From the NCBI GenBank assembly GCA_963575745.1, contig CAUYUJ010014194.1, forward strand, positions 305,001 to 369,000: a DNA stretch of 64,000 bases, in the 5' to 3' direction. Source of the stretch: Prorocentrum cordatum. Its lineage: Eukaryota > Sar > Dinophyceae > Prorocentrales > Prorocentraceae. The position numbers and the translations under genes are program-made. The notes beneath the pieces were generated by a model. That model did not search any database. It had not been told where the DNA came from and saw nothing but the letters and a program-made list of their open reading frames with translations. Shown here piece after piece: positions 9,576 through 53,884 of the stretch. The number at the start of each line of letters is the position of its first letter. The first letter of the stretch is position 1.

Positions 9576-10884
9576 GCGCTGTCCCGTCACGCAGCCCTCG
9601 GCGCTGTCGCATCGCAGCTCGCAGGGAGCCGCTGCGCCACGCAGCGCATGGCGCTCTTTTTTTGTCCGCGTGGCCTCCCATCCGCCTCGGGCCCGCCATG
9701 CCACCCCGCGCGCTTGCCTCTCGCAGCTCGACGCTCTGTTCTGCTATAGAGCGAGCGCATGGCGCTGTTCTTCCCCGTGTATGTAGCGCTCGGCGCTGCT
9801 GCTGTTGCTGAACATGTATGTCCCTCCTTTACACCCTTCTGTATGCTCATGTGTCCGTCTCTATATTGCTTATTCCTGCATGATTTCTTGCATACTTATT
9901 GGAGCTCTTGCGCACTGCGGGTCCTTCAACATGTTTATTTGTAGCGGTCCCATACATCTGTCTCACACATCTGTTTAGAAACGATTTGGCACGTCACCGG
10001 GATATTTTTTTGTGGTGGGGGAGTCGCCCGCCTGGATAGGTGGTCGATGGGCATACCCTCAGTTGAACAGTGATCACAAGCGGAATCACGATTGTGTGAG
10101 GCAGGCTTGGCAGCGTGATGCTGATAACGGGCGTGCAGAAATTCAGCGATCAACAACGCAACCAGTAGATATTCCAACATAGTTACAGACGTCATCGAAT
10201 CCAAAGCTGCTGTCGGCTTGGAATAGTCGAGCAGACGACGGTTTGCTGGAGCACATCGCGCGCTTTACGTATCTTATCTCCTGGGTGGAATGCCAGATTA
10301 GCAGCGGTGGGTTGATAGTCGCGGACGCTTTCTTGTAAGCAAGCATCCAGAGCTCGAGTTATCTTGGTGTGGGTTTGTTGATTGCGTCCAGGGCAAAGGC
10401 AGGCAGTGCAAGAAAGGCGTCAGAGATCCAGGCGACCTTTGAATTACGCCTCGCACGGCAAGAGATGGGACATCGAGAAAACCAGAAGGATGAACATGTA
10501 GCGGAGACTTCACCTGCTGACCAATAGCAAGCGGTCGTCCCAGAGGAGCGGCAAACAGCAACTGTGCTGTTAGGGTACTGGCACATCGGCAGGCAGGCAT
10601 GGAGTCATACCCACCGGGCGCACCAAGGGCGTGAAGGTAGTGAAATTTAGCCATACCGGGGCATGTATTCGAGTGCATCGGGCTTCACGGGCGCAAGGCA
10701 GTGCAAAGGCACGGGGTTCACAGTGACCAGAGCGCTTGGGCGGAAATTCAGACGATGAGGCGTGCGAGTATTGGATGGCGGGCAGGGGTCACCCCCTGCT
10801 CGCTGTGGCTGGAGCTCATTGGCAAACAATTATCCTAGCGACGGGCCCAAGCATATGCAGTTGTGGGCTCCGCGTTGTGGCGCC
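9576..10884. other. no supportable gene
   Basis: Only short frames, overlapping on both strands. Nothing here matches a family I know, and no repeats of note were seen. Confidence 0.45.
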
Positions 10885-12235
10885 GCGTTCGGTGGAGCTC
10901 CATACGGGGCCACGAAGCATGCCCAGTGGGGAACTGCATGCGAATCCTGCTGGTGGGGCTTTCGGTGGAGCTCCCTACGGGATCACGAAACGTGTGGGGT
11001 GTGTGCCCGGCGGGGAACCGCATACGAATCTTGCCACTGGGACCTTCGGTGGAGCTCCCTACGGGGTCACGAAACGTGTGGCGTGTGCGTGCCGAAATGG
11101 GCGGGGAACCGCGTGCGAATCCGGCCAAGGAGGCCTTCGGTGGAGCTCCCAATGGGGCTACGCAGCGTGTGAGGGTTGTGCAGATGGGCGGAGAACCGCA
11201 GCGAACCATGTCACTGAGGGCTCCCTATGGGGCCACGAAGCGTGTGAGGGGTGTGCCGATATGGGCGTGGAACCGAATGCGAACTCTGCCACTGAGGCCT
11301 TCGGTGGAGCTTCCTATGGGGCCAAGAAACATCTAAGGGGTGTGCCGGAATGGGCGGAGAACCGCATGCGAACCTTGCCACTGGGGCCTTCGGTGGAGCT
11401 TCCCTACGGGGTCACGAAGCGTGTGAGGGGTGTGCCCGAATGGGCGGGGAACCGCATGCGAACCCAGCAAAGGAGGCCTTCGGTGGAGCTCCCCATGGGG
11501 CCACGAAGCGTGTGTGGGGTGTGCCGAAGTGGGTGGGGAACCGCGTGCGAACTCTGCCACTGAGGCCTTCGGTGGAACTCCCAAGTGCGTCCCGAAACGT
11601 GTGAGGGGTGTACCGAAGTGGCTGGTTAACCGCGTGCGAACCATGCTACTGAGAACTTCGGTGGAGCTCCCTATGGGGCCAAGAAACTTGCAATGGGTGT
11701 CCCGAAGTGGGCGGGGAACCGCATGCGAACCCAGCCACTGAGGCCTTCTGGGGAGCTCCCTCTAGGGCCACGAAACGTGTGAGGGGTGTGTCGAAGTGGA
11801 CGGGAAACCGCATGTAAACCCTGCCACTGGGACTTTCGGTGGAGCTCCTTATGGGGCCACGCAGCGTGTGAGGGTTGTGCCGAAATGGGCGGGGAACCCC
11901 ATGCGAGCCCTGCCACTGAGGCCTTGGGTGGAGCTCAATATGGGGCCACGAAGTGTGTGAGGGGTGTGCCGAAATGGGCGGGGAACCGCGTGCGAAACCT
12001 GCCTCTAAGGCCTTCGGTGGAGCTATCTATAGGGCCACGGGAGGGTGTGCCGAAGTAGGCGAGAAACAGCATGCGAACCCTGCCACTGGGGCATTCGGTG
12101 GAGCTCCCTACGGGTTCACGAAACGTGTGAGGGGTGTCGAAATGGCCGGGGAACCGCATACGAATTCTGCCGCTGGGACCTTCGGTGGAGCTCCCTATGT
12201 GGCCACGAAGCGTGTGGCGGGTGTGACGAAATTGT
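10885..12235. repeat. ~89-bp tandem minisatellite, about 15 copies
   Basis: Each unit carries the words TTCGGTGGAGCTCCCTA, ACGAA(A/G)CGTGTGAGGGGTGTG, CCGAA(A/G)TGGGCGGGGAACCGC and ATGCGAACCCTGCCACTGAGG. Landmarks at 11049, 11139, 11303, 11392 and 11482 show a typical spacing of 82-90 bp. The unit is not a multiple of three, so long frames across it switch phase. It includes the palindrome GGAGCTCC in nearly every copy. Confidence 0.88.
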
Positions 12236-13475
12236 CGTGCGGAGGGCAGAGGCAGAGGTGGGAGGAAAGAGGAGGGGAAGGAGGAGAGGAGGTGGGAGAC
12301 TCGGGGCGTTGTCTCTTCAGAAAGAGGACCCAACACCTCAGGATGGTTGGGAAGAGCAGACGATGAGGCGCGGCCCGACGACGCATCGGCGGATTCACCC
12401 ATGCCGTGAGAGCCGAGTAGTTCTGCGGGCGCGAGGCATTCAGGGGTGCGGGGCTGCTCGCACCAGGGCAGCGGGGTGTTGAAGAGCTTGGCGTGTACTT
12501 GCTCGTTGAGACCTCATCTCAATGGCAGAATCTGCCATCGGGGTAGGGTGGCCGTCGTTGATGATACACCTGGTCAGGATTTCTGATGACAGTAAGGACT
12601 TAGATCAAGTCGCAGACGCGTTTTTCCGACAACCACATTTTTGCGTGAAGGTTGGCCTCGGTCCAGAGGGTGAGGCGCCGTCACAGTTGGCCTCTAGGGT
12701 AAATCATTGGGCGCGTTGGGAAGCTCATGCAACAAATCATGGTTTTGCACGGGGTCATCGATTGACGACATGGGCAGCAAGAAATAGAGAGAGAGAGAGG
12801 GAGAGAAAGGGGTTCCTTGGCATGCTTGTTGCTCGAGCTCAGTGGGTTCCCAACCTTGGCTGGGGTCAATCAGGAAGTTGGGGCATTACGCCAGCGAGCC
12901 TGCCAAGCTCCTTAGACCCCGGCTCCGTCCTGATCGCCGAGACAGCCCCGAATTATGCATTAGGCATGTCTGCTTGACGACTGCAAGCTCTACCTGCATC
13001 AGTCTTGTGGCGCATCGCGACGCCATGTTCGGGCCTTTTCTTTGAAATGTTGCAGTGGGCGTGTTCTGCTGTCTAGCCATTCATCTTGCCATCGTCACAT
13101 GAAGATAGGAAAGAACTCCTGAAGCGTTGAGTGCATGCATGATTGAGACTGGCTAGGGCTGGTGCTCGGTGGACATCCCGGTGGAGTCGGTCATGCGGCG
13201 GTTGGATTGCGCCAGCCCCTCCTCCATCGTGCGAGCGGGCGCGATGAACGCTACCAAGGCGCCGGGGGTCACCGTCAACTTTTCGTGTCACCGTCAATCG
13301 TCGCGCAGGTTCTTTTTGGAAGGAGTGCTGGGGGCAAGGAGAGGGAAAGGCCCCGAAGGCGCGATGTAAGCAGCGGCTCTGCATTCAAGGAGTTGATCTG
13401 CTAGTTGTTCTTGGCTGGTCCTCCTCCGACCGTGGGGGCCCGAGGGGTCGGGAGGAAGAGGACGCGGAAAGGGAT
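12236..13475. other. no supportable gene
   Basis: A 151-codon frame (12522-12977, +) is the longest clean one, but it has no recognisable motif and a short GAGAGA run inside it. I do not call it a gene. Confidence 0.4.
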
Positions 13476-33513: not shown

Positions 33514-36500
33514 CGCCACGTGGAACGCCAGCGCCCTCATGCGCTGCAAGAGCAAGCGCCGCCGTCGCAAGCAGGCAGCCCTTGCGAAGTATATGAAGCG
33601 CAAGTGCGTCATCACACTGCAGGAGGTCCACGGCTCGGAGGCTCTGCTCCGCACCTGGGTCAACACGCAGCCGTGCCCCTACAAGCTCTCCCCCTCTGAG
33701 TTCTCGTGCGACGACGGCGACAACCCGAATGCCACGGGCGGCGTCGCTACGCTCATCCCCTGGTTTACCCCGATGGAGCTCGAGCAGCTGCAGCCGAACC
33801 AGCTCCCGCTATTCGCTCATGCAGAATTCGTTCCTGCTCGTTTCCAGCTGGTGGCCGTCACGCACGCCTTCACGCGTGCCACCTTGGTCCTTATGAATGC
33901 GCACAATCACGAGATCGCCGACGCCGATCGCTGCTAGGCCCAGCAGGCCTGGGAGCTGCATCGCACTTGAGCGGAAGCTAACTACCGCATGCGCACTTTC
34001 ATCGCGATCGGGGGTCTCAATGTAGCCAGCCGCCCGCCGCAGAGTTGCAGCCGCAGCCGCAGCGCGCCGGGCTTGCCCTGGACAACAGCATGCGCCAGCA
34101 GCAGCCTTTCTGGAAGTCCCTTGTCGACTCCATGCTTGAGATCGAGGCCGAGCTCCCCGCGCGCTTCAACCGCTCGGACTTCGCCGCCGCGACCATCGAC
34201 CGCATCTACATCAGCCTGCCCTCGCGCGCCACCCAGGAGCTCTCGGCCCGCGCGAACGCGGTGCACGACGCCGCGCTGCTCTCGGACACTCGCCTGCGCG
34301 ACCACGCCATCATCACTTTTTCCATCGGCATCCAGCCGCGCACCCCGATGGGCGAGCAGGCCATCCACCCCTCGATCTCCCGCGACCCGAAGTACGCCGT
34401 CTACCTCCAGAAGCTCCTGGGCGCCACCAACTTCGACTACGTCTCGCTGGACAGCCGCTGGTGCACCCACAAGCGCCTCATGACGGAGGCCGCCCAGCTG
34501 GTTCGCGACGATTGGGTCCGCCGGGCTACCGGCGATGCCGACAAGACAGGCCCCCTGGCCGGCAGGGTCTACGCGACGCGCTCCATCTCGCGAGCCGCTT
34601 GGCGCCGAGACCTTCAACTGGCCCGCAGAGTTGCCTCCGCGACCGAGCTCGGCGCCAAGTTCGTCAACATCTCCGACGGCATCATCGCGATCAACGAGCC
34701 TGCCGTCTGCGCCAGCCTCGCTTCGCAGCTGAACCGCGACTTCGAGGCGCGGCAACTCTCTCTCGCGCAGCAAGCCGCACGGCGCCCTCTGGGGCGCGCT
34801 GGCGCCCTGGCCCCTGAGAAACTCCGTGAGATCCTTCGGACCGCCCAGCGTCGGGCTCTCCTCTGGTCTCCTTGGAAGCGCCGTCTCGTCCTCCAGGGGA
34901 TCAAGGTCACGGGCCCAGACGGGCCCAAGATAGCGAGAGAGAGAGAGAGAAAGAGAGAGAGTGGATCGATGGCCACCGCCCTGCGCGACCACTGGCAGCC
35001 CGTCTTCGCCGCCAAGCCCGTCGTCGAGACCAAGTTCACCAACTGCATCCACGCGCGCGTGCCGAAGGGCGAGATCCTGGACATTGGGGCCCCCGCGAAG
35101 CCGCAGACCAAGGCCTTCCTGCAGCGCGCTTCGCCGTCAGCACCAGGCCCCGACTGCTTGCCGTGCTCCGCCTGGCCCGCGCGCGATGCTTCGCTGACCC
35201 TCCTGGAAGACGTGTCCTTCTTCCTCTGCTCTGGCCAGCACTACATCCGCGACTTGAGCGATTCCGACTTCGCCTTCCTGCCGAAGGGCGACAACGCCTT
35301 TGGCGAACTCACGACAGACCGAGCTCTTGAAGATGCCCGGCTGCTCACGCTGAATAGCGCTGACATAAAGGCCATCGCTGGGGCGGCCAACTACCTCATC
35401 AAGGGCGCTGTGGCAGAGCGCACCCACATAGCGCAACAGGGATTCGTGCAGAAGCGCAACTTCACCCTGCACATCGTTCGCTTCGACTCTGAGATGCGGC
35501 GCGCAGGTTTACTCCCTGGAGCTCTTCAAGACAAGCCCGTCTTCGTGAGCTCCGACTTCTCTGCCGCCTTTCCGTCCTTGGGGCGGGTTTGATTCTTCGC
35601 CGCGCTGGAGCACTTCGGCATCCCGTCTGGCCTCATGAACCTCTTCCGCGCGCTGTTCTTTGCGCCGGACAGCTACGTCGAGATCGACGGCGCCAGGCAC
35701 ACCATGTTCGCCATAGAGTCTGGAGTTGCGCAGGGCTGTCCTGCTTCTGGCTCGGCCTGGGCCATCGCCATGGACCCGCTCATCCGCCACCTCGACACGT
35801 TTGTGGAGCACCGCGACGGCGCGCCGAATCTGGGCGCTGGCTACCTCGGCGCCTGCGCGGACGACATCGGGCTGCTGACGTACTCCCTCGACGCTCTGCG
35901 CTGCGCATATGAGCCCTTTGTCACGGCCGAGGAGCTTGCGCTCCTCTCGCTTAAGCCTCGCAAGTGTTTCATCGTTCCGCTCTGGGCCGCGGCGACCCCA
36001 GACACCATTGCCCACACCAAAACCCTCTTGGCCGAGCTCGGACCTTCCTGGGGCGGTTTCTCGGTTGCGGGCTGTGCCAAATACCTCGGCACGTTCCTCG
36101 GCCCCAAGGCCTCGCTGGCGTCGCAGTGGCTCGCGCCGGGGCAGCAATGGTGGTAGCGGGGGAATCTTCTACACCTAGTGCAGGGTGGCAGTGACGCCAC
36201 AGTTCGCTTTTATAATACCTCGGTCCTGTCCACGCTCAGCTACGTCGCCCAGTTCTTCCCGCTTCAGCCGTTGATCGCCCGCCGTGAACAGTATATTTTC
36301 CATGGTATGTTTGGCCTGCCGCCGAACTCACTTCGCAAAGTTGATTTCGTAACCGTGGCGCGGTGGAGCCCGCCGCCTGTCCCACAGTCCGCTCAGGTCA
36401 CAGCCGTCGCTGCCGCTGCCCGCTCTGCTGCCGTCACTCTCGCGGGTTACTGGGAGCTGTTTGCCGATTGCCGCGCCGACACTTCGTGGGAGGAAACCTC

Positions 36501-37574: not shown

Positions 37575-38756
37575 ATGGGGCCGCGCGAGGATGCTGCGTG
37601 CAGGTGGTATTGCAAGTGGTGCAAGAACGATCGCACGGGCAAGCAGTGGTGGAACATGGCGCATGCGAAGAAGTGTGTGCTGTGTGGCTTGGCGAAAGGA
37701 GTCACGTTCGGGGGCAACGTCATGCCCTCGGAGCCTTCAGTCCGCGCTAAGCTCAAGATGCCGCCGTGGAAGATCCAGTCAGCTGAGGCCGCAGGACAGG
37801 CAAAGATCAGGGAGCTTGAGGCGAAGATCAAGGAGCTTCAGGCCGAGTCGAAGCGCCTGTCTGGGGACCCCATGCAAGTCGACGCCGGCGAGAAGGATGA
37901 CGAGGCGGACATGCGCAAGAGGCTCAAGGAGATTGATGAGCAGCTCGCGTTTGTGTCCAAGTACAGCAGTGAGTCGAAGGCGGGCGCATATGTGGAGTCG
38001 CTGCGGGCGGAGAAGGAGTGTTTGCATGGCAAGCTTCAGGAGTCTCGGCCTATGTATGCGAAGTTGCAGACAATGTCGAATCGGCTCAAGACGGCGGAGA
38101 AGCGGGCGGAAGCTTCGAGAGAGTTGGTGGCAGAGAGGAAACGGCAGCTCGGTGAGATGCAGAAGAGTCTGGAGCAGGCTGAAAAGGATCTCACGGAGCA
38201 GGAGAAGGAGGTGGTGTCGCTCAGTGCGCAGGTGCAGGAGCTCACTAAGCAGGCGCCGGTGGCGCCCGAGTCGGCATCGCTGGACGAGAAGGGCAAGGCC
38301 ATGGCCATGGATGTGGGCGCCTTGGGCAAGATGCTTGAGGCGCAGGGCGTTGGCTCTGAGCAGGCGGCAGCTCTGGCGCAGGTGCTGGCGGACAGCATGG
38401 GCAAGCTCTGGGTCAAGTACGAGGCTGGTCAGGCTGAACAGTCGCTCCAAGCTCCTCGCACGCCGTATGGCGGAGCAGGCGTTTCCTCGCCTGGCACGCC
38501 GAGTGCTGAGGCAGGAGGCGGAGCGGCCGCTGCAGCAGCTGAAGGAGACGCCCAGCCCAGGTCGCTGGACCAGGTCATTGCAGATGCCAAGGAGGAGGAG
38601 CTGCGTGCATCGTTGGAGGCGTTTTACCCATCCGATTTGGCTGAGCATGTTCCCAAGGACCTTGAGGGGCTTCGGGCTGCTGCTGCTCGCCTTGCTGCTA
38701 TGCCTATCTTCAATCAATGTGGACAGCGGCTTGCAGTCGTGCATGCACCTTATTGA
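37575..38756 (+). CDS. LINE C ORF1: zinc-finger and coiled-coil RNA-binding protein
   Basis: An intact 393-residue frame. Residues about 9-40 hold a cysteine-rich finger (CRWYCKWCKND...HAKKCVLCG) able to bind zinc. Residues about 75-240 are strongly helical with heptad spacing (AKIRELEAKIKELQAESKRL; EKRAEASRELVAERKRQLGE; LEQAEKDLTEQEKEV), a probable trimerising or dimerising coiled coil. An Ala/Gly-rich linker and a helical C-terminus (LDQVIADAKEEELRASLEAF) follow. Known LINE ORF1 proteins of this build coat the element RNA and assist target-primed reverse transcription. The stop codon is TGA at 38754-38756, with ORF2 beginning one base later. I chose 37575 because the finger starts just behind it. 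Confidence 0.8.
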   Translation: MGPREDAACRWYCKWCKNDRTGKQWWNMAHAKKCVLCGLAKGVTFGGNVMPSEPSVRAKLKMPPWKIQSAEAAGQAKIRELEAKIKELQAESKRLSGDPMQVDAGEKDDEADMRKRLKEIDEQLAFVSKYSSESKAGAYVESLRAEKECLHGKLQESRPMYAKLQTMSNRLKTAEKRAEASRELVAERKRQLGEMQKSLEQAEKDLTEQEKEVVSLSAQVQELTKQAPVAPESASLDEKGKAMAMDVGALGKMLEAQGVGSEQAAALAQVLADSMGKLWVKYEAGQAEQSLQAPRTPYGGAGVSSPGTPSAEAGGGAAAAAAEGDAQPRSLDQVIADAKEEELRASLEAFYPSDLAEHVPKDLEGLRAAAARLAAMPIFNQCGQRLAVVHAPY

Positions 38757-38757
38757 G

Positions 38758-40908
38758 ATGCCGCGTAATGGTATTCCATTGTATGCTTTGCCGCAGCCGC
38801 AGGTGGTGGCAGACACCTGCCTGGTTGTTGATGAGGGCCAGGGTGATTTTCAGGAGTTCGACGACGTCGGATTTGACCAGGACGAGTTTTTCGGTATCAC
38901 CGAGGGTTCGAAGGAGGTGTCTACCGCTTTGTCGGCCACGTGTGCGGTTACTGGAGGCAGCACTGCTCAGGTGTCTGGTCGGCAGCCTAATGTTGATCTC
39001 AAGTTGAAGGGAGTGATCACATCTGCCAATGTGGAGGGCGCTGGACCTTTCAAAATGTTCATGGAGACGTGCAGGTCCAAGATAGTGGTGATTCAGGAGC
39101 ATCGCACTTTAGCCAAGCATCTTCCATCCTTGCGGTCTCACATTCGTGATCTTGGTTTCCATGGCTTCTCTGGTGGCGCCGTGGAGACAGAGGCTGCTGG
39201 ACGATCAGGTGGGGTAGCCATCCTGGCTCCGACGCACATCGTGGTGAAGGCGCCGCCTGAGCTCCCTGAGCATGAACTGGAGCCAGGTCGTATTGCTGCT
39301 GCGGATGTTTCCTGGATGGTACCAGGGGGTGTCGTTATTATTGCTGTATATCTTATCTCTGGTGAGGGTATGAGTGCAGCAAATGAGGCCTTGCTTGTGA
39401 AGATCGCGAGATACCTTGCAGTATTGAATGCTATAGGGCGCGACTGGATCGTCATGGGAGATTGGAACCTCACGCCTGATTTGCTTTCTTCCGGATGGTT
39501 GGCAGGTGTGAATGGTTTTGTTGCGGCCCCTTCGAGGCCAACATGCTTATCGGAGCAGCCTGGCAGTGTCATTGATTACGCTCTGGTGTGCGCCAACTTG
39601 GGAACTCGAGTTCGACGGCCTCAGGTGGTGGACGACAGTAATATCAAAGTTCACTTACCTGTGGAGTTGCCAGTGTTAGCTGAAGACAGGCCAGCATGGG
39701 TTCGACAGGTGGTGGAGCCAGCTCCATTCTCGAGGACGCCGCCTATCGGATGTGAGAGATTTCTATTGGATTGGAGCGAGGTTGAACGGCAAGTTTTTGA
39801 TGCTCGAACCAGCGACGACTTGAGTTTGGCTTGGGACGCGTTGCTGGCTGGCCTGGAATCCGAATTGCAGGGTGTCTATGATTGCGTAGATGGAGTAAAG
39901 GCTTCGTCGACGTCTGGGCGTGGTGGCCCTATTCTTACCCAGATGGCACAGGCCAAGTGGCGACCTCCTCTTCGACGGTTGCATCATGGTCCTGAGCTAC
40001 GGGCGTGGACTGTTGCTCTAAGGTGGGGCTTCCATTGCAGGAGAGTCAAAGAGCACGTCGCCAAGTTGGTGGACAAGCTTCTGATTTGGCGGGACGGGAA
40101 CAGGCTTGTGCATGTTCGGGCCGATCACTCTGCGCTGGCGAAGGTGCTGGTGGAATTCGCTCGTTTTATGCATGGAGTTCGCGGTTGTGAAAGTACTCTG
40201 CAAGCTCTACCTGCATGGGTTTCTGAATTTTTCTTGCCGTCATCTTGTTTTTAGCTACTGGCGCGTGATGATTTTGACCAGGTGGTTGCCGACATTCAAG
40301 GTGCTCATGATCGCATGTTATCTGCTCATGAGAAGTGTGATCGTGCTCGATGGAAGAGGTTCGTGGATTCTGCCTTTGTGAAAGGTGCTAGTGGTGCGCA
40401 TCGGTTCACTAGGTTACAGGCGACCCAGGAGATCATCGAGGCAGGCAGTGAGCAATCACCACACGAGTTGGCTGATCGTGAAATGAAAAAATGGTTGAAG
40501 GTGTGGACGGTGCATGAGGACAGCGAGATCATGTTGCCCTCCGACAGTGCCAGTTGGCCTTCTCTGCCCCATATCACCACGGACATGATGGTTCATGCTA
40601 TCCTCTCGTTCAAGTGGAAAACGGCAGCTGGTCCGTCGAAGCTGCAGTCTAGATCGTTGTGGTTCTTGTCGCGTGAGGCTTTGGGAGCCATGGCCTCCTT
40701 CTTCATGAAGTGCGAGGATTTGCTACTATGACCAGTGGATCGTATTCACGCTGAGATGGCTATGATTCCGAAGGAAGGAGGCGGAACTCGACTGGTGGCT
40801 CTCATTCACACTTTGATACGTGTTTGGGCGAGAGTCCGAAGACCACTTTCAAGGCAATGGGTGCAGCAGTTTCCCTCGGAGATGGTCTGGGGCAATAGGA
40901 AGGGGTAC
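38758..40908 (+). pseudogene. LINE C ORF2, 5' part: endonuclease and start of reverse transcriptase
   Basis: The ATG at 38758 follows the ORF1 stop in TGAgATG, so translation by termination-reinitiation is likely. An acidic linker leads into an endonuclease of the EEP fold: VVIQEHR near 39083 (catalytic Glu), GRSGGVAIL near 39200, WIVMGDWNLT near 39447 (D-x-N), SVIDYALV near 39568. Reverse transcriptase begins with WKTAAGPSKLQSRS near 40617 and MIPKEGGGTRLVALIHT near 40760. The frame is continuous apart from TAG at 40252-40254 and TGA at 40729-40731; the latter sits where Trp (TGG) would read LLLWPVDRIHAEM. The domain ends in mid-sequence at WGNRKGY, where the satellite insertion begins. Confidence 0.88.
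40905..40908. other. left target-site duplication GTAC
   Basis: GTAC directly before the left terminal inverted repeat; the same four bases follow the right repeat at 50964-50967. Since GTAC is itself a palindrome, a TA duplication with a terminal repeat one base longer is an equally consistent reading. Confidence 0.75.
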
Positions 40909-40922
40909 CCACCGGTCGTTGA

Positions 40923-41036
40923 AAGTAGGTATTTTTGGATTCCCAGATCCCAATCTACTTTAAGCGCCTTCCTATTTCAAGAATCTATATTTTTTGTTTT
41001 TTTTGGGGGCGGGCGCAAACCTAATCTACTTCTAGG
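40923..41036. repeat. left subterminal module
   Basis: It contains AAGTAGGTA (40923-40931), CAATCTACTT (40951-40960), GCCTTCCTATTTCA (40966-40979), a T-run with GGGGGCGGGC (40990-41014) and CTAATCTACTTCT (41021-41033). The same words, in the same orientation, recur at the right end. Such repeated subterminal words resemble transposase-binding sites of DNA transposons. Confidence 0.65.
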
Positions 41037-43395
41037 GTTTGGTTGTCACTTCCCTGGGCGACGCTGGTCGCTCGGCCCCTCGGCTGGCCCCATTCCTTGG
41101 TTTTGATTGTTTTGTTTGTTTTCGCTTGTCCGTCGGCTGCACTGGTCGCCCCAGTGTCGCCCGCCGCCCCGCGGTCGCTCGGCCTGGCCCCACTATTTGG
41201 TTTTGTTTGTTTTTGTTTGTTTTCGCTTGCCCGTCGGCTGCACTGGTCGCCCCAGGCTCGCCCACCTCCCCGCGGTCGCTCGGCCCCTCGGCTTGCCCCA
41301 TGCAATGGTTTTGTTTTTTTTTGTTTTGTTTTTTTTCGCTTGTCCGTCGGCTGCACTGGTCGCCCCGGGCTCGCCCACCTCCCCGCGGTCGCTCGCCCCC
41401 TCAGTTTGCCCCATTCCTTGGTTTTGTTTGTTTCTGTTTGTTTTCGCTTGTCCGTCGGCTGCACTGGTCGCCTCAGGCTCGCCCGCCGCCCCGCGGTCAC
41501 TCGGCCCCTCGGCTGGCCCCATTCCTTGATTTTGTTTGTTTTTGTTTTTTTTCGCTTCTCCGTCGGCTGCACTGGTCGCCCCAGGCTCGCCCGCCGCCCC
41601 GCGGTCGCTCGGCCCCTCGGCTGGCCCCATGCACTGGTTTTGTTTGTTTTTGTTTGTTTTCGCTTGTCCTTCGGCTGTACTGGTTGCCACAGGTTCGCCC
41701 GCCGCGTCTCGGTCGCTCGGCCCCTCGGCTGGCTCATTTTTTTGTTTTGTTTGCTTTTGCTTGTTTTCGCTTGTCCGTCGGCTGCACTGGTCGCCTCAGG
41801 CTCGCCCGCCGCCCCGCGGTCGCTCGGCCCTTCGGCTGGCCCCATTCCTTGGTTTTGTTTGTTTCTGTTTGTGTTCGCTTGTCCGTCGGCTGCACTGGTC
41901 GCCCCAGGCTCGCCCGCCGCCTTTCGGTCGCTCGCCCCCTCGGCTGGCCCCATTCCTTGGTTTTGTTTGTTTTTTGCTTGTTTTCGCTTGCCCGTCGGCT
42001 GCAATGGTCGCCCCGGGCTCGCCCGCCGCACAGCGGTCGCTCTGCCTTTCGGCTGGCCTCATTCCTTTGTTTTGTTTGTGGTTGATTGTTTTCGTTTGTC
42101 CGTCGGCTGCACTGGTCGCCACAGGCTCGCCCGCCGCCTTTCGGTCGCTCGACCCCTCGGCTGGCCCAATTCTTTGGTTTTGTTTGTTTTTGTTTGTTTT
42201 GGTTTGTCCGTCGGCTGCACTGGTCGCCTCAGGCTCGCCCGCCGCCCTGCGGTCGCTCGGCCTCTCGGCTGGTCGATTTCTGTGTGTTTGTTCGTTTCGT
42301 TTGTTTTCGCTTGTCCGTCGGCTGCACTGGTCGCCCCAGGCTCGCCCGCCGCCCCGCGGTCGCTCGGCCCCTCGGCGGGCCCCATTCATGGTTTTGTTTG
42401 TTGTTGTTTGTTTTCGCTTGTCCGTCGGCTGCGCTGGTCGCTCCAGGCTCGCCCGCCGCCCCGCGGTCGCTCGGCCTCTCGGCTGGCCCCATTATTTGGT
42501 TTGGTTTGTTTTTGTTTGTTTTCGCTTGTCCGTCAGCTGCACTGGTCGCCCCAGGCTCGCCCGCCGCCCCGCGGTCGTTCGGCCCCTCGGCTGGCGCAAT
42601 TCGTTGGGTTTGTTTGTTTTTGTTTGTTTTCGCCTGTCCGTCGGCTGCAATGGTCGCCCCAGGCTCGCCCGCCGCCCCGCGGTCGCTCGGCCCCTCGGCT
42701 GGCCAGATTCGCTGGTTTTCTTTGTTTTTGTTGGTTTTCGCTTGTCCGTCGGCTGCACTGGTCGCCCTGCGCACGCCCGCCGCCTTTCGGTCGCTCGGCA
42801 CCCCGGCTGGCCCCAGTCCTTGGTTTCGTTTGGTTTCTGTTTGTTTTCGCTTGTCCGTCGGCTGCACTGGTCGCCTCAGGCTCGCCCGCCGCCTTTCGGT
42901 CGCGCTGCCCTGCCCCTCGGCTGGCCAAATGCTTAGTTTTGTTTGTTTTTGTTTGTTTTCGCTTGTCCGTCGGCTGCGCTGGTCGCTCCAGGCTCGCCCG
43001 CGGCTTTTCGGTCGCTCGGCCCCTCGGCTGGCTCATTTCCGTGGTGTTGTTTGTTTTGGTTTGTTTTCGTTTGTCCGTCGGTTGTACTTGTGGCCCCAGG
43101 CTCGCCCGCCGCGTTTCGGTCGCTCTGCCCCTCGGCTGGCCGAATTCAATTGTTTTCTTTGTTTTGTTTGTTTTCGCTTGTCCGTCGGCTGCACTGGTCG
43201 CCCCAGCCTCTCCCGCCGCTTTCCGGTCGCTCGGCCCCTCGGATCGCCAAATTCATTGGGTTTGTTTGTTTTTGTTTGTTTTCGCTTGTCCGTCGGCTGC
43301 ACTGGTCGCCCCAGGCTCGCCCGCCGCCTTTCGGTCGCCCGGCCCCTCGGCTGGCCCCATTCCCTGGCTTTCTTTGTTTCTGTTTGTTTCGCTTG
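41037..43395. repeat. ~108-bp satellite array, first orientation (~21 units)
   Basis: Units alternate an AT-rich half (TTTTGTTTGTTTTTGTTTG followed by TTTTCGCTTGTCCGTCGG) with a GC-rich half (CTGCACTGGTCGCCCCAGGC, TCGCCCGCCGCCCCGCGGTC, GCTCGGCCCCTCGGCTGGCC). The array breaks off in mid-unit at GCTTG (43391-43395). Stops are rare in all frames, so long spurious reading frames cross it. Confidence 0.95.
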
Positions 43396-46300
43396 TAGGG
43401 AATGGGGCCAGCCGAGGGCTCCGAGCGACCGAAAGGCGGCGGGCGTGCGCAGGGCGACCAGTGCAGCCGACGGACAAGCGAAAACAAACAAAAACAAACA
43501 AAACCGATGCATTTGGCCAGCCGAGGGGCCGAGCGACCGAACGGCGGCGGGCGGGCCTGGGGCGACCAGTGCAGCCGACGGACAAGCGAAAACAAACAAA
43601 AACAAACAAAACCAATGAATTGGGCCAGCCGAGGGGCCGAGCGACCGAACGGCGGCGGGCGGGCCCGGGGCGACCAGTGCAGCCGATGGACAACCGAAAA
43701 CAAACAAAAACAAACAAAACCAATGCATTTGGCCAGCCGAGGGGCCGAGCGACCGAAAGGCGGCGGGCGAGCCTGAGGCGACCAGTGCAGCCGACGGACA
43801 AGCGAAAACAAACAGAAACAAAGAAAGACAGGGAATGGGGCCAGCCGTGGGGCCGAGCGATCGAAAGGCGGCGGGCGTGCGCAGGGCGACCAGTGCAGCC
43901 GACGGACAAGAAAAACAAACAAAACCAGTGAATTTGGCCAGCCGAGGGGCCGAGCGACCGAACGGCGGCGGGCGGGCCTGGAGCGACCAGCGCAGCCGAC
44001 GGGCAAGCGAAAACAAACAAAAACAAACAAAACCGATGAATTGGGCCAGCCGAGGGGCCGAGCGACCGCGGGGCGGCGGGCGAGCCTGAGGCGACCAGTG
44101 CAGCCGACGGACAAGCGAAAACAAACAGAAACAAAGAAAGCCAGGGAATGGGGCCAGCCGGGGGGCCGAGCGACCGAAAGGCGGCGGGCGTGCGCAGGGC
44201 GACCAGCGCAGCCGACGGACAAGCGAAAACAAACAAAACACACACAAAACCAGTGAATTCAACCAGCCGAGGGGCCGAGCGACCGAAAGGCGGCGGGCGG
44301 ACCTGGGGCGACCAGTGCAGCCGACGGACAAGCGAAAACAAACAAAAACAAACAAAACCAGTGCAGTTGGCCAGCCGGGGGGCCGAGCGACCGCGGGGCG
44401 GCGGGCGAGCTTGGGGCGACCAGTGCAGCCGACGGACAAGCGAAAACACACAGAAACAGAGAAAGCCAGGGAATGGGGCCAGCCGAGGGGCAGAGCGACC
44501 GAAATGCGGCGGGCGCGCGCAGGGCGACCAGTGCAGCCGACGGACAAGCGAAAACAAACAAAAGCAAACAAAACCAATGCATTGGGCCAGCCGGGGGGCC
44601 GAGCGACCGAACGGCGGCGGGCGGGCCTGAGGCGACCAGTGCAGCCGACGGACAAGCGAAAACAAACAAAAACAAACAAAACCAATGCATTTGGCCAGCC
44701 GAGGGGCCGAGCGACCGCGGGGCGGCGGGCGAGCTTGAGGTGGCCAGCGCAGCCGACGGACAAGCGAAAACAAACAGAAACAAAGAAAGCCAGGGAATGG
44801 GGCCAGCCGAGGGGCCGAGCGACCGAAAGGCGGCGGGCGTGCGCAGGGCGACCAGTGTAGCCGACGGACAAGCGAAAACAAACAAAATCAAACAAAACCA
44901 GTGCATTTGGCCAGCCGAGGGGCCGAGCGACCGAACGGCTGCGGGCGGGCCTGGGGCGGCCAGTGCAGCCGACGGACAAGCGAAAACAAACAAAAACAAA
45001 CAAAACCGATGCATTTGGCCAGCCGAGGGGCCGAGCGACCGCGGAGCGGCGGGCGAGCCTGAGGCGGCCAGTGCAGCCGACGGACAAGCGAAAACAAACA
45101 GAAACAAAGAAAGCAAGGGAATGGTGCCAGCCGAGGGGCAGAGCGACCGAAATGCGGCGGGCGTGCGCAGGGCGACCAGTGCTGCCGACGGACAAGCGAA
45201 AACAAACAAAAACAAACAAAACCAGTGAGTTGGGCCGGCCGATGGGGCCGAGCGACCGAACGGCGGCGGGCGGGCCCGGGGCGACCAGTGCAGCCGACGG
45301 ACAAGCGAAAACAAACAAAAACAAACACAACCGATGCTTTTGGCCAGCCGAGGGGCCGAGCGACCGCGGGGCGGCGGGCGAGCCTGAGGCGACCAGTGCA
45401 GCCGACGGACAAGCGAAAACAACCAGAAACAAAGAAAACCAGGGAATGGGGCCATCCGAGGGGCCGAGCGACCGAAAGGCGGCGGGCGTGCGCAGGGCGA
45501 CCGGTGCAGCCGACGGACAAGCGAAAACAAACAAAACAACAACAAAACCAGTGAATTGGGCCAGCCGAGGGGCCGAGCGACCGAACGGCGGCGGGCGGGC
45601 CTGAGGCGACCAGACCAGTGCAGCCGACGGACAAGCGAAAACATACCAAAGCAAACAAATCCAATGCATTTGGCCAGCCGAGGGGCCGAGCGACCGCGGG
45701 GCGGCGGGCGAGCCTGAGGCGACCAGCGCAGCCGACGGACAAGCGAAAGCAAACAGAAACAAAGAGAGCCAGGGACTGGGGCCAGCCGAGGGGCCGAGCG
45801 ACCGAAAGGCGGCGGGCGCGCGCAGGGCGACCAGTTCAGCCGACGGACAAGCGAAAACAATCAAAAACAAACAAAACCAGTGAATTGGGCCAGCCGAGCG
45901 ACCGAGCGGCGGCGGGCGGGCCTGGGGCGACCGGCGCAGCCGACGGACAAGCGAAAACATACAAAAAACAAGCAAAACCGGGGCCGAGCGACCGCGGGGC
46001 GGCGGGCGAGCCTGAGGCGACCAGTGCAGCCGACGGACAAGCGAAAACAAACAGGAACAAAGAAAGCCAGGGAATGGGGCCAGCCGAGGGGCCGAGCGAC
46101 CGAAAGGCGGCGGGCGCGCGCAGGGCGACCAGTGCAGCCGACGGACAAGCGAAAAACAAACAAACACAAACGAAACCAGTGAATTGGGCCGGCCGAGGGG
46201 CCGAGCGACCGAGCGGCGGCGGGCGGGCTCGGGGCGACCAGCGCAGCCGACGGACAAGCGAAAACAAACAAAAACAAACAAAACCAATGCATTTGGCCAG

Positions 46301-49300
46301 CCGAGGGGCCGAGCGACCGCGGGGCTGCGGGCGAGCCTAAGGCGACCAGCGCAGCCGACGGACAACCGAAAACAAAGAGAAACAAAGAAAGCCAGGGAAT
46401 GGTGCCGGCCGAGGGGCCGAGCGACCGAAAGGCGGCGGGCGCGCGCAGGGCGGCCAGCGCAGCCGACGGACAAGCGAAAACAAACAAAAACAAACAAAAC
46501 CAGTGAATTGGGCCAGCCGAGGGGCCGAGCGACCGAACGGCGGCGGGCGGGCCTGGGCGACCAGTGCAGCCGACGGACAAGCGAAAACAAACAAAAGCAA
46601 ACAAAACCAGTGCATTTGGCCAGCCGAGGGGCCGAGCGACCGCGGTGCGGCGGGCGAGCCTGAGGCGACCAGTGCAGCCGACGGACAAGCGAAAACAAAC
46701 AGAAACAAATCATGCCAGGGAGTGGGGCCAGCCGAGGGGCCGAGCGACCGAAGCGGGGGCCGGCCAGGGGCGACGGGCAGCCTGCAGCCGACGGACAAGC
46801 GAAAACAAACAAGAACAAACAAAACCAATGCATTTGGCCAGCCGAGGGGCCGAGCGACCGCGGGGCGGCGGGCGAGCCCGAGGCGACCAGTGCAGCCGAC
46901 GGACAAGCGAAAACAAACAGAAACAAAGAAAGCCAGGGAATGGGGCCAGCCGAGGGGCCGAGCGACCGAAAGGCGGCGGGCGCGCGCAGGGCGACCAGTG
47001 CAGCCGACGGACAAGCGAAAACAAACAAAAAAACAAACAAAACCAGTGAATTGGGCCAGCCGAGGGGCCGAGCGACCGAGCGCGGCGGGCGATCTGGGGC
47101 GACCAGCGCAGCCGACGGACAAGCGAAAACAAACAGAACGAAGAAGCCAAGGAAAGGGGCCAGCCGAGGGGCCGAGCGACCGAAAGGCGGCGGGCGCGCG
47201 CAGGGCGACCAGCGCAGCCGACGGACAAGCGAAAACAAACAAACAACAACAAACAAAACCAGTGAATTGGGCCAGCCGAGGGGCCGAGCGACCGAGCGGC
47301 GGCGGGCGGGTCTGGGGCGACCAGCGCAGCCGACGGACAAGCGAAAACAAACAACAAACAAAACCATGATTTGGCCAGCCGAGGGGGCGAGCGACCGCGG
47401 GGCGGCGGGCGAGCTTGAGGCGACCAGTGCAGCCGACGGACAAGCGAACACAAACAAAAACAAACAAAGCCAGTGAATTGGGCCAGCCGAGGGGCCGAGC
47501 GACCGAACGGCGGCGGGCGCGCGCAGGGCGACCAGCGCAGCCGACAGACAAGCGAACACAAACAAAAACAAACAAAGCAGTGAATTGGGCCAGCCGAGGG
47601 GCCGAGCGACCGAACGGCGGCGGTTGGGCCTGGGGCGACCAGTGCAGCCGACGGACAAGCGAAAACAAACAAAAACAAACAAAACCAATGCATTTGGCCA
47701 GCCGAGGGGTCGAGCGACCGCGGGGCGGCGGGCGAGCTTGAGGCGACCGTGCAGCCGACGGACAAGCGCAAACAAACAGAAACAAAGAAAGCCAGGAATG
47801 GGGCCAGCCGAGGGGCCGAGCGACCGAACGGCGGCGGGCGTGCGCAGGGCGACCAGTGCAGCCGACGGACAAGCGAAATCAAACAAAAACAAGCAAAACC
47901 AGTGAATTGGGCCAGCCGAGGGGCCGAGCAACCGCGGGGCGGCGGGCGAGCCTGGGGCGACCAGCGCAGCCGACGGACAAGCAAAAACAAACAAAAATAA
48001 ACAAAACCATGGATGGGGCCCGCCGAAGGGCCGAGCTGCCGCGGGGCGGCGGGCGAGCCTGGGGCGACCAGTGCAGCCGACGGATAAGCGAAATCGAACA
48101 GAAACAAAGAAAGCCAGGGAGTGGGGCCAGCCGAGGGGCCGAGCGACCGAAAGGCAGCGGGCGCGCGCAGGGCGACCAGTGCAGCCGACGGACAGGCGGA
48201 ATCAAACAAAAACAAACGAAACCAATGAATTGGGCCAGCCGAGGGGCCGAGCGACCGAACGGCGGCGGGCGGGCTCGGGGCGACCAGGGCAGCCGACGGA
48301 CAAGCGAAAACAAACAAAAACAAACAAAACCAATGCATTTGGCCAGCCGAGGGGCCGAGCGACCGCGGGGCGGCGGGCGGGCCTGGGGCGACCAGTGCAG
48401 CCGACGGACAGGCGAAAACAAACAAGACAAAGCAAAACCAATGAATTGGGCCAGCCGAGGGGCCGAGCGCCCGCGGGGCGGCGGGCGAACCTGGGGCGAC
48501 CGACGGACAAGCGAAAACAAGCAAAAACAAACAAAACCAGTGAATTGGGCCAGCCGAGGGGCCGAGCGACCGCGGGGCGCGGGGCGGCGGGCGCAGCTGA
48601 CGGGCAAGCGAAGACGAACAACAACAAACAAAATCAAGGAATTCGGCCAGCCGAGGGGCCGAGCGACCGAACAGCGGCGGGCGAGCCTGGGGCGACCGGC
48701 GCAGCCGACGGACAAGCGAAAACAAACAAAACAAACAAAACCAACGCATTTGGCCAGCCGAGGGGGCGAGCGACCGCGGGGCGGCGGGCGGGCCTGAGGC
48801 GACCAGTGCAGCCGACGGCCAAGCGAAACAAAACAACAAACGAAACAAAGAAGCGGCACATGGGGCCAGCCGGCGCCGAGCGCCGAAAGCGGCGCGTGCG
48901 CAGGGCGACCAGTGCAGCCGACGGACAAGCGAAAACAACAAAACAAACAAAACCAGTGAATTGGGCCAGCCGAGGGGCCGAGCGACCGAACGGCGGCGGT
49001 CGGGCCTGGGGCGACCAGCGCAGCCGACGGACAAGCGAAAACAAACAACAGCAAACGCAACCAATGCATTTGGCCGGCCGAGGGGCCGAGCGACCGCGGG
49101 GCGGCGGGCGAGTTTGAGGCGACCACTGCAGCCGACGGACAAGCGAAAACAAATAGAAACAAAGAAAGCCAGGGAATGGGGCCAGCCGAGGGGCCGAGCG
49201 ACCGAAAGGCGGCGGGCGTGCGCAGGTCGACCAGTGCAGCCGACGGACGAGCGAAATCAAACAAAAACAAGCAAAACCAGTGAATTGGGCCAGCCGAGGG

Positions 49301-50840
49301 GCCGAGCGACCGAACGGCGGCGGGCGGGCCTGGGGCGACCAGCGCAGCCGACGGACAAGCGAAAACAAGCCGAAACAAACAAGACCAATGAATGGGGCCA
49401 GCCGAGGGGCCGAGCGACCGCGGGGCGGCGGGCGGGCCTGGGGCGACCAGTGCAGCCGACGGACAAGCGAAAACAAACAAAAAACAAACAAAACCAATGA
49501 ATTGGGCCAGCCGATGGGCCGAGCGCCCGCGGGGCGGCGGACGAACCTGGGGCGACCAGTGCAGCCGACGGACAAGCGAAAACAAGCAGAAACAAACAAA
49601 ACCAGTGAATTTGGCCAGCCGAGGGGCCGAGCGCCCGCGGGGCGGCGGGCGAGCCTGGGGCGACCAGCGCAGCCGACGGACAAGCGAAAACAAACAAAAA
49701 CAAACGAAACAGTGGAAAGGGGCCAGCCGGGGGGCCGAGCGACCGCGGGGTGGCGGGCGAGGCTGGGGCGACCAACGCAGCTGACGGACAAGCGAACACG
49801 AACAACAACAAACAACATCAGGGAATTGGGCCAGCCGAGGGGCCGAGCGAGAGAACAGCGGCGGGCGAGCCTGGGGCGACCAGTGCAGCCGACGGACAAG
49901 CGAAAACAAACAAAAACAAGCAAAACCAATGTATTTGGCCAGCCGAGGGGCCGAGCGACCGCGGAGCGGCGGGCGAGCCTGAGGCGACCGGTGCAGCCGA
50001 CGGACAAGCGAAAACAAACAGAAACAAAGAAAGCCAGGGAGTGGGGCCAGCCGAGGGGCCGAGTGACCGAAAGGCGGCGGGCGAGCCTGGGGCGTCCAGT
50101 GCAGCCGACGGACAAGCGAAAACAAACAAAAACAAACAACATCAGGGAATTGGGCCAGCTGAGGGGCCGAGCGACCGAACGGCGGCGGGCGGGCCTGAGA
50201 CGACCAGTGCAGCCGACGGACAAGCGAAAACAAACAGGAACAAAGAACGCCAAGGAATGGGGCCAGCCGAGGGGCCGAGCGACCGCGGGGCGGCGGGCGG
50301 GCCTGGGGCGACCAGTGCAGCCGACGGACAAGCGAACACAAACAAAAACAAACAAAACCAAGGAATGGGGCCAGCCGAGGGGCCGAGCGACCGCGGGGCG
50401 GCGGGCGTGCGCAGGGCGACCAGTGCAGCCGACGGACAAGCGAAAACAAACAGAATCAAACAAAACCAGTGAATTCGGCCAGCCGAGGGGCCGAGCGACC
50501 GAACGGCTGCGGGCGGGCCTGGGGCGGCCAGTGCAGCCGACGGACAAGCGAAAACAAACAAAAACAAACAAAACCAATGCATTTGGCCAGCCGATGGGCC
50601 GAGCGACCGAAAGGCCGCGGGCGGGCCTGGGGCGACCAGTGCAGCCGACGGACAAGCGAAAACAAACAGAAACAAACAAAACCAACGCATTTGGCCAGCC
50701 GAAGGGCCGAGCGACCGAAAGGCTGCCACTGCGATCGACGGACAAACGAAAACAAGCCAGAACAACCGAAACCAGCCAAGGAATGGGGCCATCCGAGGAG
50801 CCAAGCGACCTAGCGCTACTGCGCGCCGCTGAGACAGGGC
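43396..50840. repeat. ~108-bp satellite array, opposite orientation (~68 units)
   Basis: This is the reverse complement of the preceding array. The landmark GGCCAGCC falls at 43406, 43515, 43623, 43731 and 43839, a spacing of 108-109 bp, with one short 96-bp unit after that. Three unit types rotate: A (GGAATGGGG with GTGCGCAGGG), B (GAATTGGG with GGGCCTGGGG) and C (GCATTTGG with CGAGCCTGAGG and CAGAAACAAAGAAAGCC), giving a ~325-bp higher-order repeat. Order becomes less regular after about 48 kb. Confidence 0.95.
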
Positions 50841-50844
50841 CCGG

Positions 50845-50950
50845 AAATTTGCAATCTACTTCTTGTAATTGCTGTTGCTGTTGTTTTTTTGGGCGGCCCC
50901 GAATGCAATCTACTTCTTCCGCCTTCCTACTTCATGTTTCTACCTACTTC
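50845..50950. repeat. right subterminal module
   Basis: It contains GCAATCTACTTCTTG (50851-50865), a T-run with GGGCGGCC (50883-50898), CAATCTACTTCTTCC (50906-50920), GCCTTCCTACTTCA (50921-50934) and TACCTACTTC (50941-50950). The block 50906-50934 matches 40951-40979 at 24 of 29 positions in the same orientation. Confidence 0.65.
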
Positions 50951-50963
50951 TTCCGACCGGTGG

Positions 50964-50967
50964 GTAC
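50964..50967. other. right target-site duplication GTAC
   Basis: Second copy of GTAC. The reverse transcriptase frame resumes here as G-Y-S-S-S-G-S-A-F, so one GTAC copy belongs to the uninterrupted gene. Confidence 0.75.
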
Positions 50968-53884
50968 TCGTCGTCTGGGTCTGCCTTCATGCATAACGCG
51001 ATGGCGGAGATGTCTAAGCTGCTGGGCGAGCATTCGCTCACTGTTATGATGGACATGTGGAAGTGCTTCGGCACGGTCAAGATCAGCAGTCTGTTTAGTG
51101 AGGCTCGAGAAGTTGGCTACCCTTTGCGATTACTTTGGCAGTTGGTGACTTCTTACAAAATGCCTCGAGCTGTGAAAGCGTGTGGGTCGGTGTCTGTCCT
51201 ACAAGAAGTGGGGCAGGGCATCCTGCCTGGATGCGCGCACGCCACGACGCTGCTGACGGTGTTGATGATTCGTACGTTGATTAGGGTGAAGGAGATTTGT
51301 CCGACTATTCACCCTCGGGCTCTTGTGGACGACGGAAAATTGCAATGGGTGGGGCAGGACTTGCAAGAGATGGTCGAGCTGGTCAAGGCTACTCGCATTT
51401 TCAAGAGTGGCATGAGAAGGCTCGGCCTGCTGGTCCAGCCCGTCAAGTCGGGCTACGTGGGCACCACCAGAGAGGCGCTCAAGAAGTTTTCTCCGTGGGC
51501 CAAGGTGCTTAGGCTAACTCAGAGGAAGCAGATGCGCAATTGAGGACATGATATGGTAGGGGGACGTGTGATTCGAACGGTTGCGAAAGGTCGTCTGGAT
51601 AAGCTGCAGAAACGAATGGGGCGCGTCAGGGTGCTCCAGAAGGCTGCTGGATCCAAGGTGGGGGCCAGTTGGCGGTTTGGGCTGCTGGCAGGGGCCGCAC
51701 ACGGCAGCTCTGTCTCGGGCGTTCCTGACTGTGACCTGAAGCGGCTCAGGCAGACGGCTGGGGTTATCGCTGGGGTTCACGCCAAAGGAGTCAGTGTCAC
51801 GGCCTACTTGGCGTCGCAGCGTGACCCGTACATGGGCCCGATCTTTGATGCAACGCTCAACATGGTGTATATGTACTGCTGTTTCGTGTTCGACATGAGG
51901 ATGGACATGGGCAAGCTCGAGCGGGTTTGGCGTGTACTCAAAGACCTGTGGCATGGACGCGATCCAGGCTGGCAGGGAGTTCGAGGACCGATAGCTGCGA
52001 CCTGGCTGTCATTGAGGAGAGTAGGCTGGGAGATGGCTAGCAGCACGCTTATCGTCAGTGACACGGGCATGGTGATTTCGTTGCTGCAGATGCCTCCCAA
52101 GGATGTTCGAAAGTTGTTGATCCTTAGGGTTCAACGGTGGCAAGGCCGAAGGATCCTGGAGCATCATGCTGAACACTTGGAGGGAGGCGAGTCCTTGTGG
52201 ATGCGTGCTGTGCATCTTACCGTTGGTGGTAAGGCAGCCACCATCAAGAACGCACAGGTCGCGGGTGCCCTCCGCTGCCTTTGGGCTGGTGGCTACATGA
52301 CTGTGCAGAAGAGGCATCAACGAGGATGGTTGCCTACGCCACACTGCCCACATCCTGACTGTCGTGAACTACGTGCTGTCGGAGATCTTGGTCATCTTTG
52401 GTACGCTTGTCCGAATTTGCTTGAACAGAATGATGCTGGCGGTCTGCCAGCCTGGTCCGAGGAGATGGAAAAAACGCGTGATCGTCTGTCTGAGGAGGGA
52501 GTCAATGTCATGGGGCAGGACAGTTTTCACCTGCTGAAGTTTTGTATTGGGCTCCCCCAGGCTCCTCCTGATCTCCCCCCTCCGTCCTCCGAGCCTCCCA
52601 CCTTCTTCTGGGGGGACTGGGGGTCGAAGCCTGAGGGGTGGGGTCCCACTGCCTTCTTTGATGGGTCTGGGATGCACAGCGCCTGGCCTGAATTCAGGCG
52701 ATGCGGATGGTCGGCTGTTCAGATGGGAGAGTTTGGCCTCCCTGTTCGTGCAGCCTACGGTCCACTCCCAGGCCCTATTCAGTCTGTAGGCAGAGCTGAA
52801 AGACATGCGCTCTTGCGGGGGCTTCAGTTGTTGCCGCGTTTAGTGCTTTCCGTTTCGGATCTCCTTGGGGCCGTGCGTGAGGGGGTTGAATGGTCTCCTG
52901 AGCATGCGTCTGCCGCGTCCGCCCACGCTGATATCTGGAGGCAAAATTTTAGCGTTGCTCAGGGGAGGGAGAACCCGAAGGCTCCCATGTATGAATGGGT
53001 GCCTGGAGGAGTTTCTTGAGCGAGGACAATGGCCCGTGTCTTGGTGGTTTGGCAATATGTGGGCGGATTTCTTTGCCAAGATGGGGGCCTGCTCGCACAA
53101 GGTTGCGGACTCTTCTGGTGATTACTGGTCTGATCAGCTTGTCATGGGTAGGAATAATGCAAAGTTTTTTGGCTGGGCTGCTGCCCAGCATGCGGCACAT
53201 AGAGGAGTTGTGGGTGCGCAGCTGGAGGCCCTTCGGGAGAGGGGCACCCCTAGGCCTTCTGCTGAAGTCGCCCGCTCCCTACGTGCGCCCCCCTTCTTCG
53301 CTTCCAGGATCATGTGTTCTGGCGTGCTGGTGAGTTCATGGTCTGTCGATCCTGCCTGGCCAGGGCGAGAGCGGAGGCTTCGCGTAAATGGCTCACTCAA
53401 GGCAGTGGGCGAGAGTGTAACCCCTCCCCTTTGCAGCGGGAGCGTGCCCGCCTGGCTTTTTCTAAAGGTGGTTTGTATGCTGCTGCGTCCCCCCTGGCCA
53501 GGCCAGAGGCGATCCAGTCTGCGTTGTCTGGCGCGTTGGAGGTCCTGGGGCCCGAGGTTTCTGGGGCTGAGCCCACGTCTAGCTCTGGTGTGCCTGGGTC
53601 TGGATCGGTCTCGGAGCCCAGGACTGGGGGGGGGGGGCGGGGAGTGTGAGTTTCAGGTTTTCACTTCTCTGGGGCACGTGATGGAGCGTGCAGGCCCATA
53701 CATCTTCTGCACGGCGTGCGGGTCGTATTGCGCTCAGAGGATGGGGCCCAGGCTGCGTTCGGTGTGCAAGCCCCCGAGTTCGGGGGTGCTGCCTGATCGG
53801 GTGAGGAAGTATCTTGCGAACATCCGTGATGGCCTGCACCCGAAGTCTGGTTTAAAGCTCTCAGGGGCCGCCCCCCAGGAGTGA
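50968..53884 (+). pseudogene. LINE C ORF2, 3' part: polymerase core, RNase H and zinc modules
   Basis: It continues the frame left at 40908. SSSGSAFMHNAMAEM is followed by MMDMWKCFGTVK (first catalytic Asp at 51052-51054), GILPGCAHATTLL near 51219, and ALVDDGKLQW (GAC GAC at 51328-51333). A cysteine/histidine finger (CPHPDC...HLWYACPN) is near 52345-52410. RNase H follows: FFDGSG (Asp at 52660-52662), AERHAL (Glu 52798-52800), VSDLLG (Asp 52858-52860) and, after a frameshift near 53015, GNMWADFFAK (Asp 53066-53068). Two related cysteine modules end the protein: VCRSCLARARAEAS near 53342 and FCTACGSYCAQRM near 53707, the latter followed by a basic tail with LANIRDGLHPKSG. An in-frame TGA lies at 51541-51543. 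Confidence 0.85.

Follow-up and report, generated by a model that had tools for sequence, protein, structure and literature searches.

The window analyzed here is a stretch of 64,000 nt from Prorocentrum cordatum (assembly GCA_963575745.1, contig CAUYUJ010014194.1, positions 305,001–369,000 of the forward strand), and the coordinates below are positions within it. It contains a long interspersed nuclear element (LINE), encoded on the forward strand, whose reverse transcriptase gene is interrupted by an element of 10,057 bp (40908–50964, +), a satellite-bearing derivative of a miniature inverted-repeat transposable element (MITE). The endonuclease part of the LINE lies upstream of the insertion at 38701–40251 (Pfam Exo_endo_phos, E 4.2e-9). 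The reverse transcriptase is split into a left part at 40732–40907 and a right part at 50967–51543, which were recognized from the in-frame join, the RVT_1 match and the sister copies of the LINE.

The element is bounded by an 11-bp terminal inverted repeat (TIR), CCCACCGGTCG, at 40908–40918 (+) and 50954–50964 (−). The original prediction had described mirror-image ends that share a subterminal word, and this was confirmed: CCACCGGTCG (40909–40918) and CGACCGGTGG (50954–50963) form an exact inverted match, and the word AAGTAGGTA is found just inside both ends, at 40923–40931 (+) and 50941–50949 (−), with three exact matches in the window against 0.02 expected. The related word AAGTAG/CTACTT occurs three times in the left end and four times in the right end. 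GTAC does flank the element on both sides, as had also been stated, but its proposed role as the target duplication was ruled out. All of the 78 genomic ends that were read had C next to CCACC on the outer side, and TA preceded this C in 72 of them, which placed the inverted repeat at CCCACCGGTCG and reduced the duplication to TA (40906–40907 and 50965–50966), in agreement with the empty sites described below. The outer G and C are a coincidence of the site. TA flanked both sides in 25 of the 30 complete elements scored (13 long or medium and 17 short) and in 11 of 12 further long copies, the remaining one having CT at its left.

Inside the ends, satellite arrays begin after about 160 and 240 bp. 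A satellite filling had been predicted, but it was resolved into two arrays of one 108-bp unit in opposite orientation, a left arm of about 21 units (41066–43396, −) and a right arm of about 68–69 units (43400–50723, +). The unit-to-unit identity was 0.848 between the arms, and 0.860 and 0.853 within them. One arm being a mirror copy of the other was ruled out, as no peak of identity was seen at the mirror pairing. In its first half, the right arm is patterned in trimers, with an identity of 0.904 at lag 3 compared with 0.844 at lags 1 and 2. The two opposed arrays of one satellite recall the arms of a foldback element, yet they are unequal in length and not mirror copies.

Taking out 10,059 bp, which is the element plus one TA, left an open frame that reads WGNRKGY-SSSGSAF across the join, as had been predicted. 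The Pfam RVT_1 match across the join was weak (E 3.8e-4, 20.7 bits, under the curated cut-off of 29.6), and the interrupted LINE copy has further stops apart from the insertion. The two LINE flanks were joined into a 400-base query, which gave 75 candidates; 40 matches were scored. The expectation of empty sites in related LINE copies was borne out, since 37 of the 40 matches were continuous across the insertion point (24 at 87–98% identity and 13 at 72–80%); two of the other three were the window's own halves, and one lay entirely on one side. Four empty sites were read, with GGGGTACTCG in three and GGGGCACTCG in one. These uninterrupted sisters and empty sites indicated that the insertion is real and occurred later than the making of this LINE copy, and a precise insertion into the reverse transcriptase frame is supported. 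A second LINE-like reverse transcriptase is located just upstream, at 33982–36153 (RVT_1, E 2.8e-7 at 35593–36153).

Other elements with the same ends, proposed in the original prediction as a check, were sought in the whole assembly (4.128 Gb, 21,875 contigs). The end plus the subterminal word matched 4,060 + 4,094 places (8,154, at ≤2 mismatches), compared with 12 + 13 for a reversed-pattern control. In 48 end loci, a partner end was sought up to 700 bp away; 17 left-type ends without satellite proved to belong to short elements, 11 of which were exactly 181 bp long and differed from their consensus by 1–7 bases. At least three of the short members of other lengths contain an inserted stretch. 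The left end of the window element (40909–41032, +) is homologous to positions 1–134 of this MITE (alignment score 159.5), and the right end (50892–50963, +) to positions 109–181 (score 94.5), while random 260-mers of the window scored at most 28 in 300 draws. Because the left 124 bases correspond to MITE 1–134 and the right 72 to MITE 109–181, the satellite lies between two copies of MITE segment 109–134, the right copy of which is weak when aligned alone (score 19 vs. a random maximum of 23.5). The right end of the short MITEs is CGACCGATGG.

Two further observations concern the short form (contigs and loci are numbered with C and L, respectively). Three MITE copies (L065, L067, and L104) measured 349, 368, and 391 bp and carry other stretches near the right end, perhaps explained by nested small elements. 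At L110 (G000:C924:55300-57000), the left end of the 181-bp MITE is repeated six times in a row at a spacing of 240–251 bp, and it looks as if the MITE plus its flank had itself turned into a tandem repeat.

Thirteen end pairs were present among the 100 matches listed for the end pattern, and 12 of them were fetched (the pair on C6569 was left out). All 12 had the same TIRs as the window element. Eight measured 10.0–10.6 kb and repeated its plan, with 18–21 units in one orientation followed by 62–69 in the opposite one; the other four were shorter (5,457, 5,130, 3,180 with 100 N, and 2,279 bp). An earlier stage of the long form may be represented by the two smallest, in which 23 and 16 units, respectively, point one way and a single unit points the other. 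Identities between copies were taken from pairwise alignments, and blastn identities were not used because of register slips in the arrays. The nine full copies (the window and the eight) shared 93.56–99.87% identity. Those on C1016, C4764, C7668, and C10446 differed from each other by only 13–20 bases over 10.2 kb (99.80–99.87%). The window copy was 94.4–98.85% identical to the eight others, and 98.80–98.85% to these four. The 60 bases of the inversion junction were identical in seven of the nine, while the copy on C5961 differed by 9 and that on C1025 by 22.

The right subterminal 46-mer of the satellite-bearing form occurred at 94 places (≤3 mismatches), 47 of them exact, and its control at none. 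Nineteen exact places were traced for a left end, and a twentieth ran off its contig. In 12 of the 19, the left end was 10,044–10,518 bp away. Together with the window element and the eight fetched copies, 21 assembled copies of 10.0–10.6 kb with both ends were thus available.

The original prediction had found no class that it could name for this element. The 11-bp inverted ends, the TA target, the ends held in common with the short MITE, the near-identical collinear 10-kb copies with different flanks and the empty sister LINE sites together place it among the non-autonomous TIR DNA transposons. We therefore conclude that the 10-kb unit is probably such a transposon, a MITE with a middle of two opposed 108-bp satellite arrays, foldback-like and apparently non-coding. 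The family shows inverted ends, a TA duplication of fixed size and many dispersed copies, and no Pfam domain was recognized in three long frames of the window element. MITEs are below about 600 bp, a size that holds for the 181-bp form but not for that of 10,057 bp, which is a MITE derivative grown to 10 kb by internal satellite, and not a MITE itself.

Several observations speak against this conclusion. TA was lacking on one or both sides in five of the 30 complete elements, although in one of these, L109, the second end was probably misassigned. Six of the 19 traced long copies had no left end within 9.7–10.9 kb, and the right end was unmatched in one of the 19. One of the six, on C559, belongs to a member of about 16.3 kb (G000:C559:28888-45158) with arrays in both orientations, and in another, on C403, the left end is located at about 10.4 kb and is degraded. 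Some copies also share flanks: C4764 and C10446 have a common right flank and different left flanks; C10746 and C403 share, as far as seen, the right flank only; and C2591 and C14656 show identical 15 bases on both sides. The assembled copies are therefore not all independent, and those sharing flanks probably reflect duplicated contigs or misjoins caused by the repeat. Finally, no transposase with the ends of the element was found. DDE_3 domains occurred at 66 places, and in the 23 neighborhoods examined (mostly 1.5 kb on each side) none was accompanied by the inverted repeat at ≤1 mismatch, so that the transposase gene with the same ends envisaged in the original prediction was not recovered there.

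The main rival explanation involves seeding and conversion: the 181-bp MITE would have inserted first and later been converted by a long copy elsewhere, through ectopic recombination or break-induced copying. Recombination, and not a transposase, would then have spread the satellite. The thousands of MITE ends could serve as homologous seeds, and copies sharing one flank, such as those on C4764 and C10446, could be recombinants, a pattern that misassembly fits equally well. However, conversion predicts the MITE-type right end in some long copies, and none of 20 had one. These 20 right ends were located via internal sequence, the end itself not being selected on; 17 had the exact long-form end, two had another base change, and one was unmatched. 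We consider this explanation unlikely.

Growth in place, with a MITE entering the LINE and the satellite then arising or expanding at that spot, is a far less probable alternative. Copies do differ by whole units, and the window lacks one 109-bp stretch found in C1016, which shows that the arrays do change a little in place. However, the order of units, the inversion junction and the arms recur collinearly elsewhere, with identities that reach 98.85% to the window copy and 99.87% among the others, and the 60-base junction recurs without a change in most full copies. The evidence for movement of the unit as a whole is much stronger than that for local growth.

We attach an equally small probability to an assembly artefact, in which a palindromic or repeat-driven misjoin would have put the satellite into the LINE. 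Copies of this long unit are nearly identical, some contigs have common flanks, and the assembly, if it is the published one, is a PacBio and Illumina hybrid with RNA scaffolding (according to excerpts of PMC10666404). On the other hand, the two flanks are halves of one LINE whose unbroken sisters are up to 98% identical over the join, the arms are not mirror copies of each other, and the ends and the TA fit a transposon. Lastly, the idea of a protein-coding element with a translated repeat (108 bp being 36 codons, and both strands having long open frames, the longest of 1,722 aa) can practically be dismissed, since no Pfam domain was detected in three of the longest frames through the units of the window element, the unit lengths range from 90 to 114 bp and are often not multiples of three, and both strands are open at once, as a G+C-rich repeat predicts.

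For the transposed MITE derivative, the constant ends, the TA target, the different flanks and the empty sister sites make up the pattern left by cut-and-paste transposition. Since nothing recognizable is encoded in the element, the enzyme would have to come from elsewhere in the genome. Such a transposase would likely act in trans on the ends and the adjoining repeated AAGTAG words, excise the whole unit and reinsert it at TA. The satellite would then be a cargo, which may have grown in one MITE lineage by duplicating units and trimers and subsequently travelled along with the MITE. The TA target, seen at the great majority of ends, suggests the Tc1/mariner superfamily. End-like matches near DDE_3 domains in L199 and L200, one on each strand, had two mismatches and pointed outward, which is about the level of chance. 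On G000:C19044, C14433, C3343, and C18543, DDE_3 domains form tandem clusters whose open frames reach several hundred codons, and these look like host gene arrays and not like scattered transposons. A 15-base subterminal word was also met in 62 stretches of viral contigs, which were taken as chance. Introns with inverted repeats have been reported in P. cordatum (excerpts of PMC10666404).

The 108-bp satellite itself is abundant in the genome. A 33-base word of the unit was found at 3,353 + 3,513 places (≤3 mismatches; control 0), 82 of which were in the window element alone. The 100 matches listed for the exact word came from seven contigs, six of which had a satellite-bearing family end. The remaining contig, C112, had arrays of 4, 27, and 11 units without family ends within the fetched stretches, the last array reaching the edge of its stretch. 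This indicated that the satellite also exists outside recognizable elements.

A possible second satellite-carrying family was observed at 7894–12351 of the window, with the ends CCCAACCCTCCTG at 7894 (+) and CCCAACCATCCTG at 12339–12351 (−), which bracket a 102-bp array (8074–9577) and an 89-bp array (11220–12232, Tandem Repeats Finder); no target duplication was recognized for this family at 7894–12351. The same CCCAACC end is also nested in the elements on C2997 (position 1251, L088) and C1237 (position 3057, L087), and in both it is followed by satellite resembling the 89-bp array. We raise only tentatively, as a rather doubtful generalization, that TIR transposons might be a main satellite vehicle in this genome, that at least two unrelated families (the present one and that with CCCAACC[C/A]TCCTG ends) might carry ready-made arrays of one to ten kb, and that higher-order arrays might spread more by transposition than by local amplification.

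The dispersal of satellites is an old question, for which the answers have often come from remnants or from short arrays that had been captured. In the present genome, arrays of kilobase length, complete with their inversion junction and trimeric pattern, can be traced intact through many sites, and their ends, target and empty sites are known. This opens the spread of satellite by transposition to direct testing, in a protist whose genome is very large. The 10-kb unit, which consists almost only of satellite and carries the ends of a small mobile element, has probably moved as a whole to many places, here into a retrotransposon gene, and illustrates one route of satellite dispersal.

MITEs with internal satellite and foldbacks with tandem-repeat arms are already known. 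Among the titles and abstract openings covered by our literature search, which left subscription papers mostly outside, none concerned this element family or satellite-bearing transposons of Prorocentrum. The following comparisons draw on excerpts of the cited papers. The closest in kind is miDNA4 of Xenopus tropicalis, a Tc1/mariner MITE with internal satellite (Scalvenzi and Pollet, 2014, as described in PMC12628747 and PMC9659126). It resembles the present element as a MITE of a TA-type superfamily with satellite inside, either one monomer or an array whose length varies, which was spread by MITE bursts. The element described here has about 90 units in two opposed arms within a 10-kb unit, whereas the descriptions of miDNA4 give no opposed arms and no array length; miDNA4 is assigned to Tc1/mariner, whereas for the present element this class is suggested by the TA target. 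The Xstir/Xmix MITE of Xenopus (Hikosaka and Kawahara, 2004, as described in PMC12628747 and PMC9659126) likewise combines a MITE, a tandem array and a MITE-array composite in one genome. There, the repeat is said to come from the interior of the MITE.

Tetris, a foldback transposon of Drosophila virilis (PMC4079207), is also non-autonomous, lacks an open reading frame and has inverted arms with tandem repeats (about 220 bp in Tetris); it too has a smaller relative of the MITE type (DAIBAM), and arrays are also located outside it. Its arms are at most 1,735 bp with few units, its target duplication is 8–10 bp, and three structurally complete copies were described. In contrast, the arms here are 2.3 and 7.3 kb, the target is TA, and the copies of 10.0–10.6 kb with both ends number 21. 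Galileo of Drosophila (PMC3573991) is a TIR element as well, in which the internal direct repeats of each end grow and shrink independently of those in the other, but it belongs to the P superfamily, makes a 7-bp target duplication, has at most three repeat units per end, and encodes transposase sequence in some copies. Compared with these systems, the Prorocentrum element differs in its scale and integrity: its two opposed arms together hold about 90 units, which moved as one block of some 10 kb, with up to 99.87% identity between copies.

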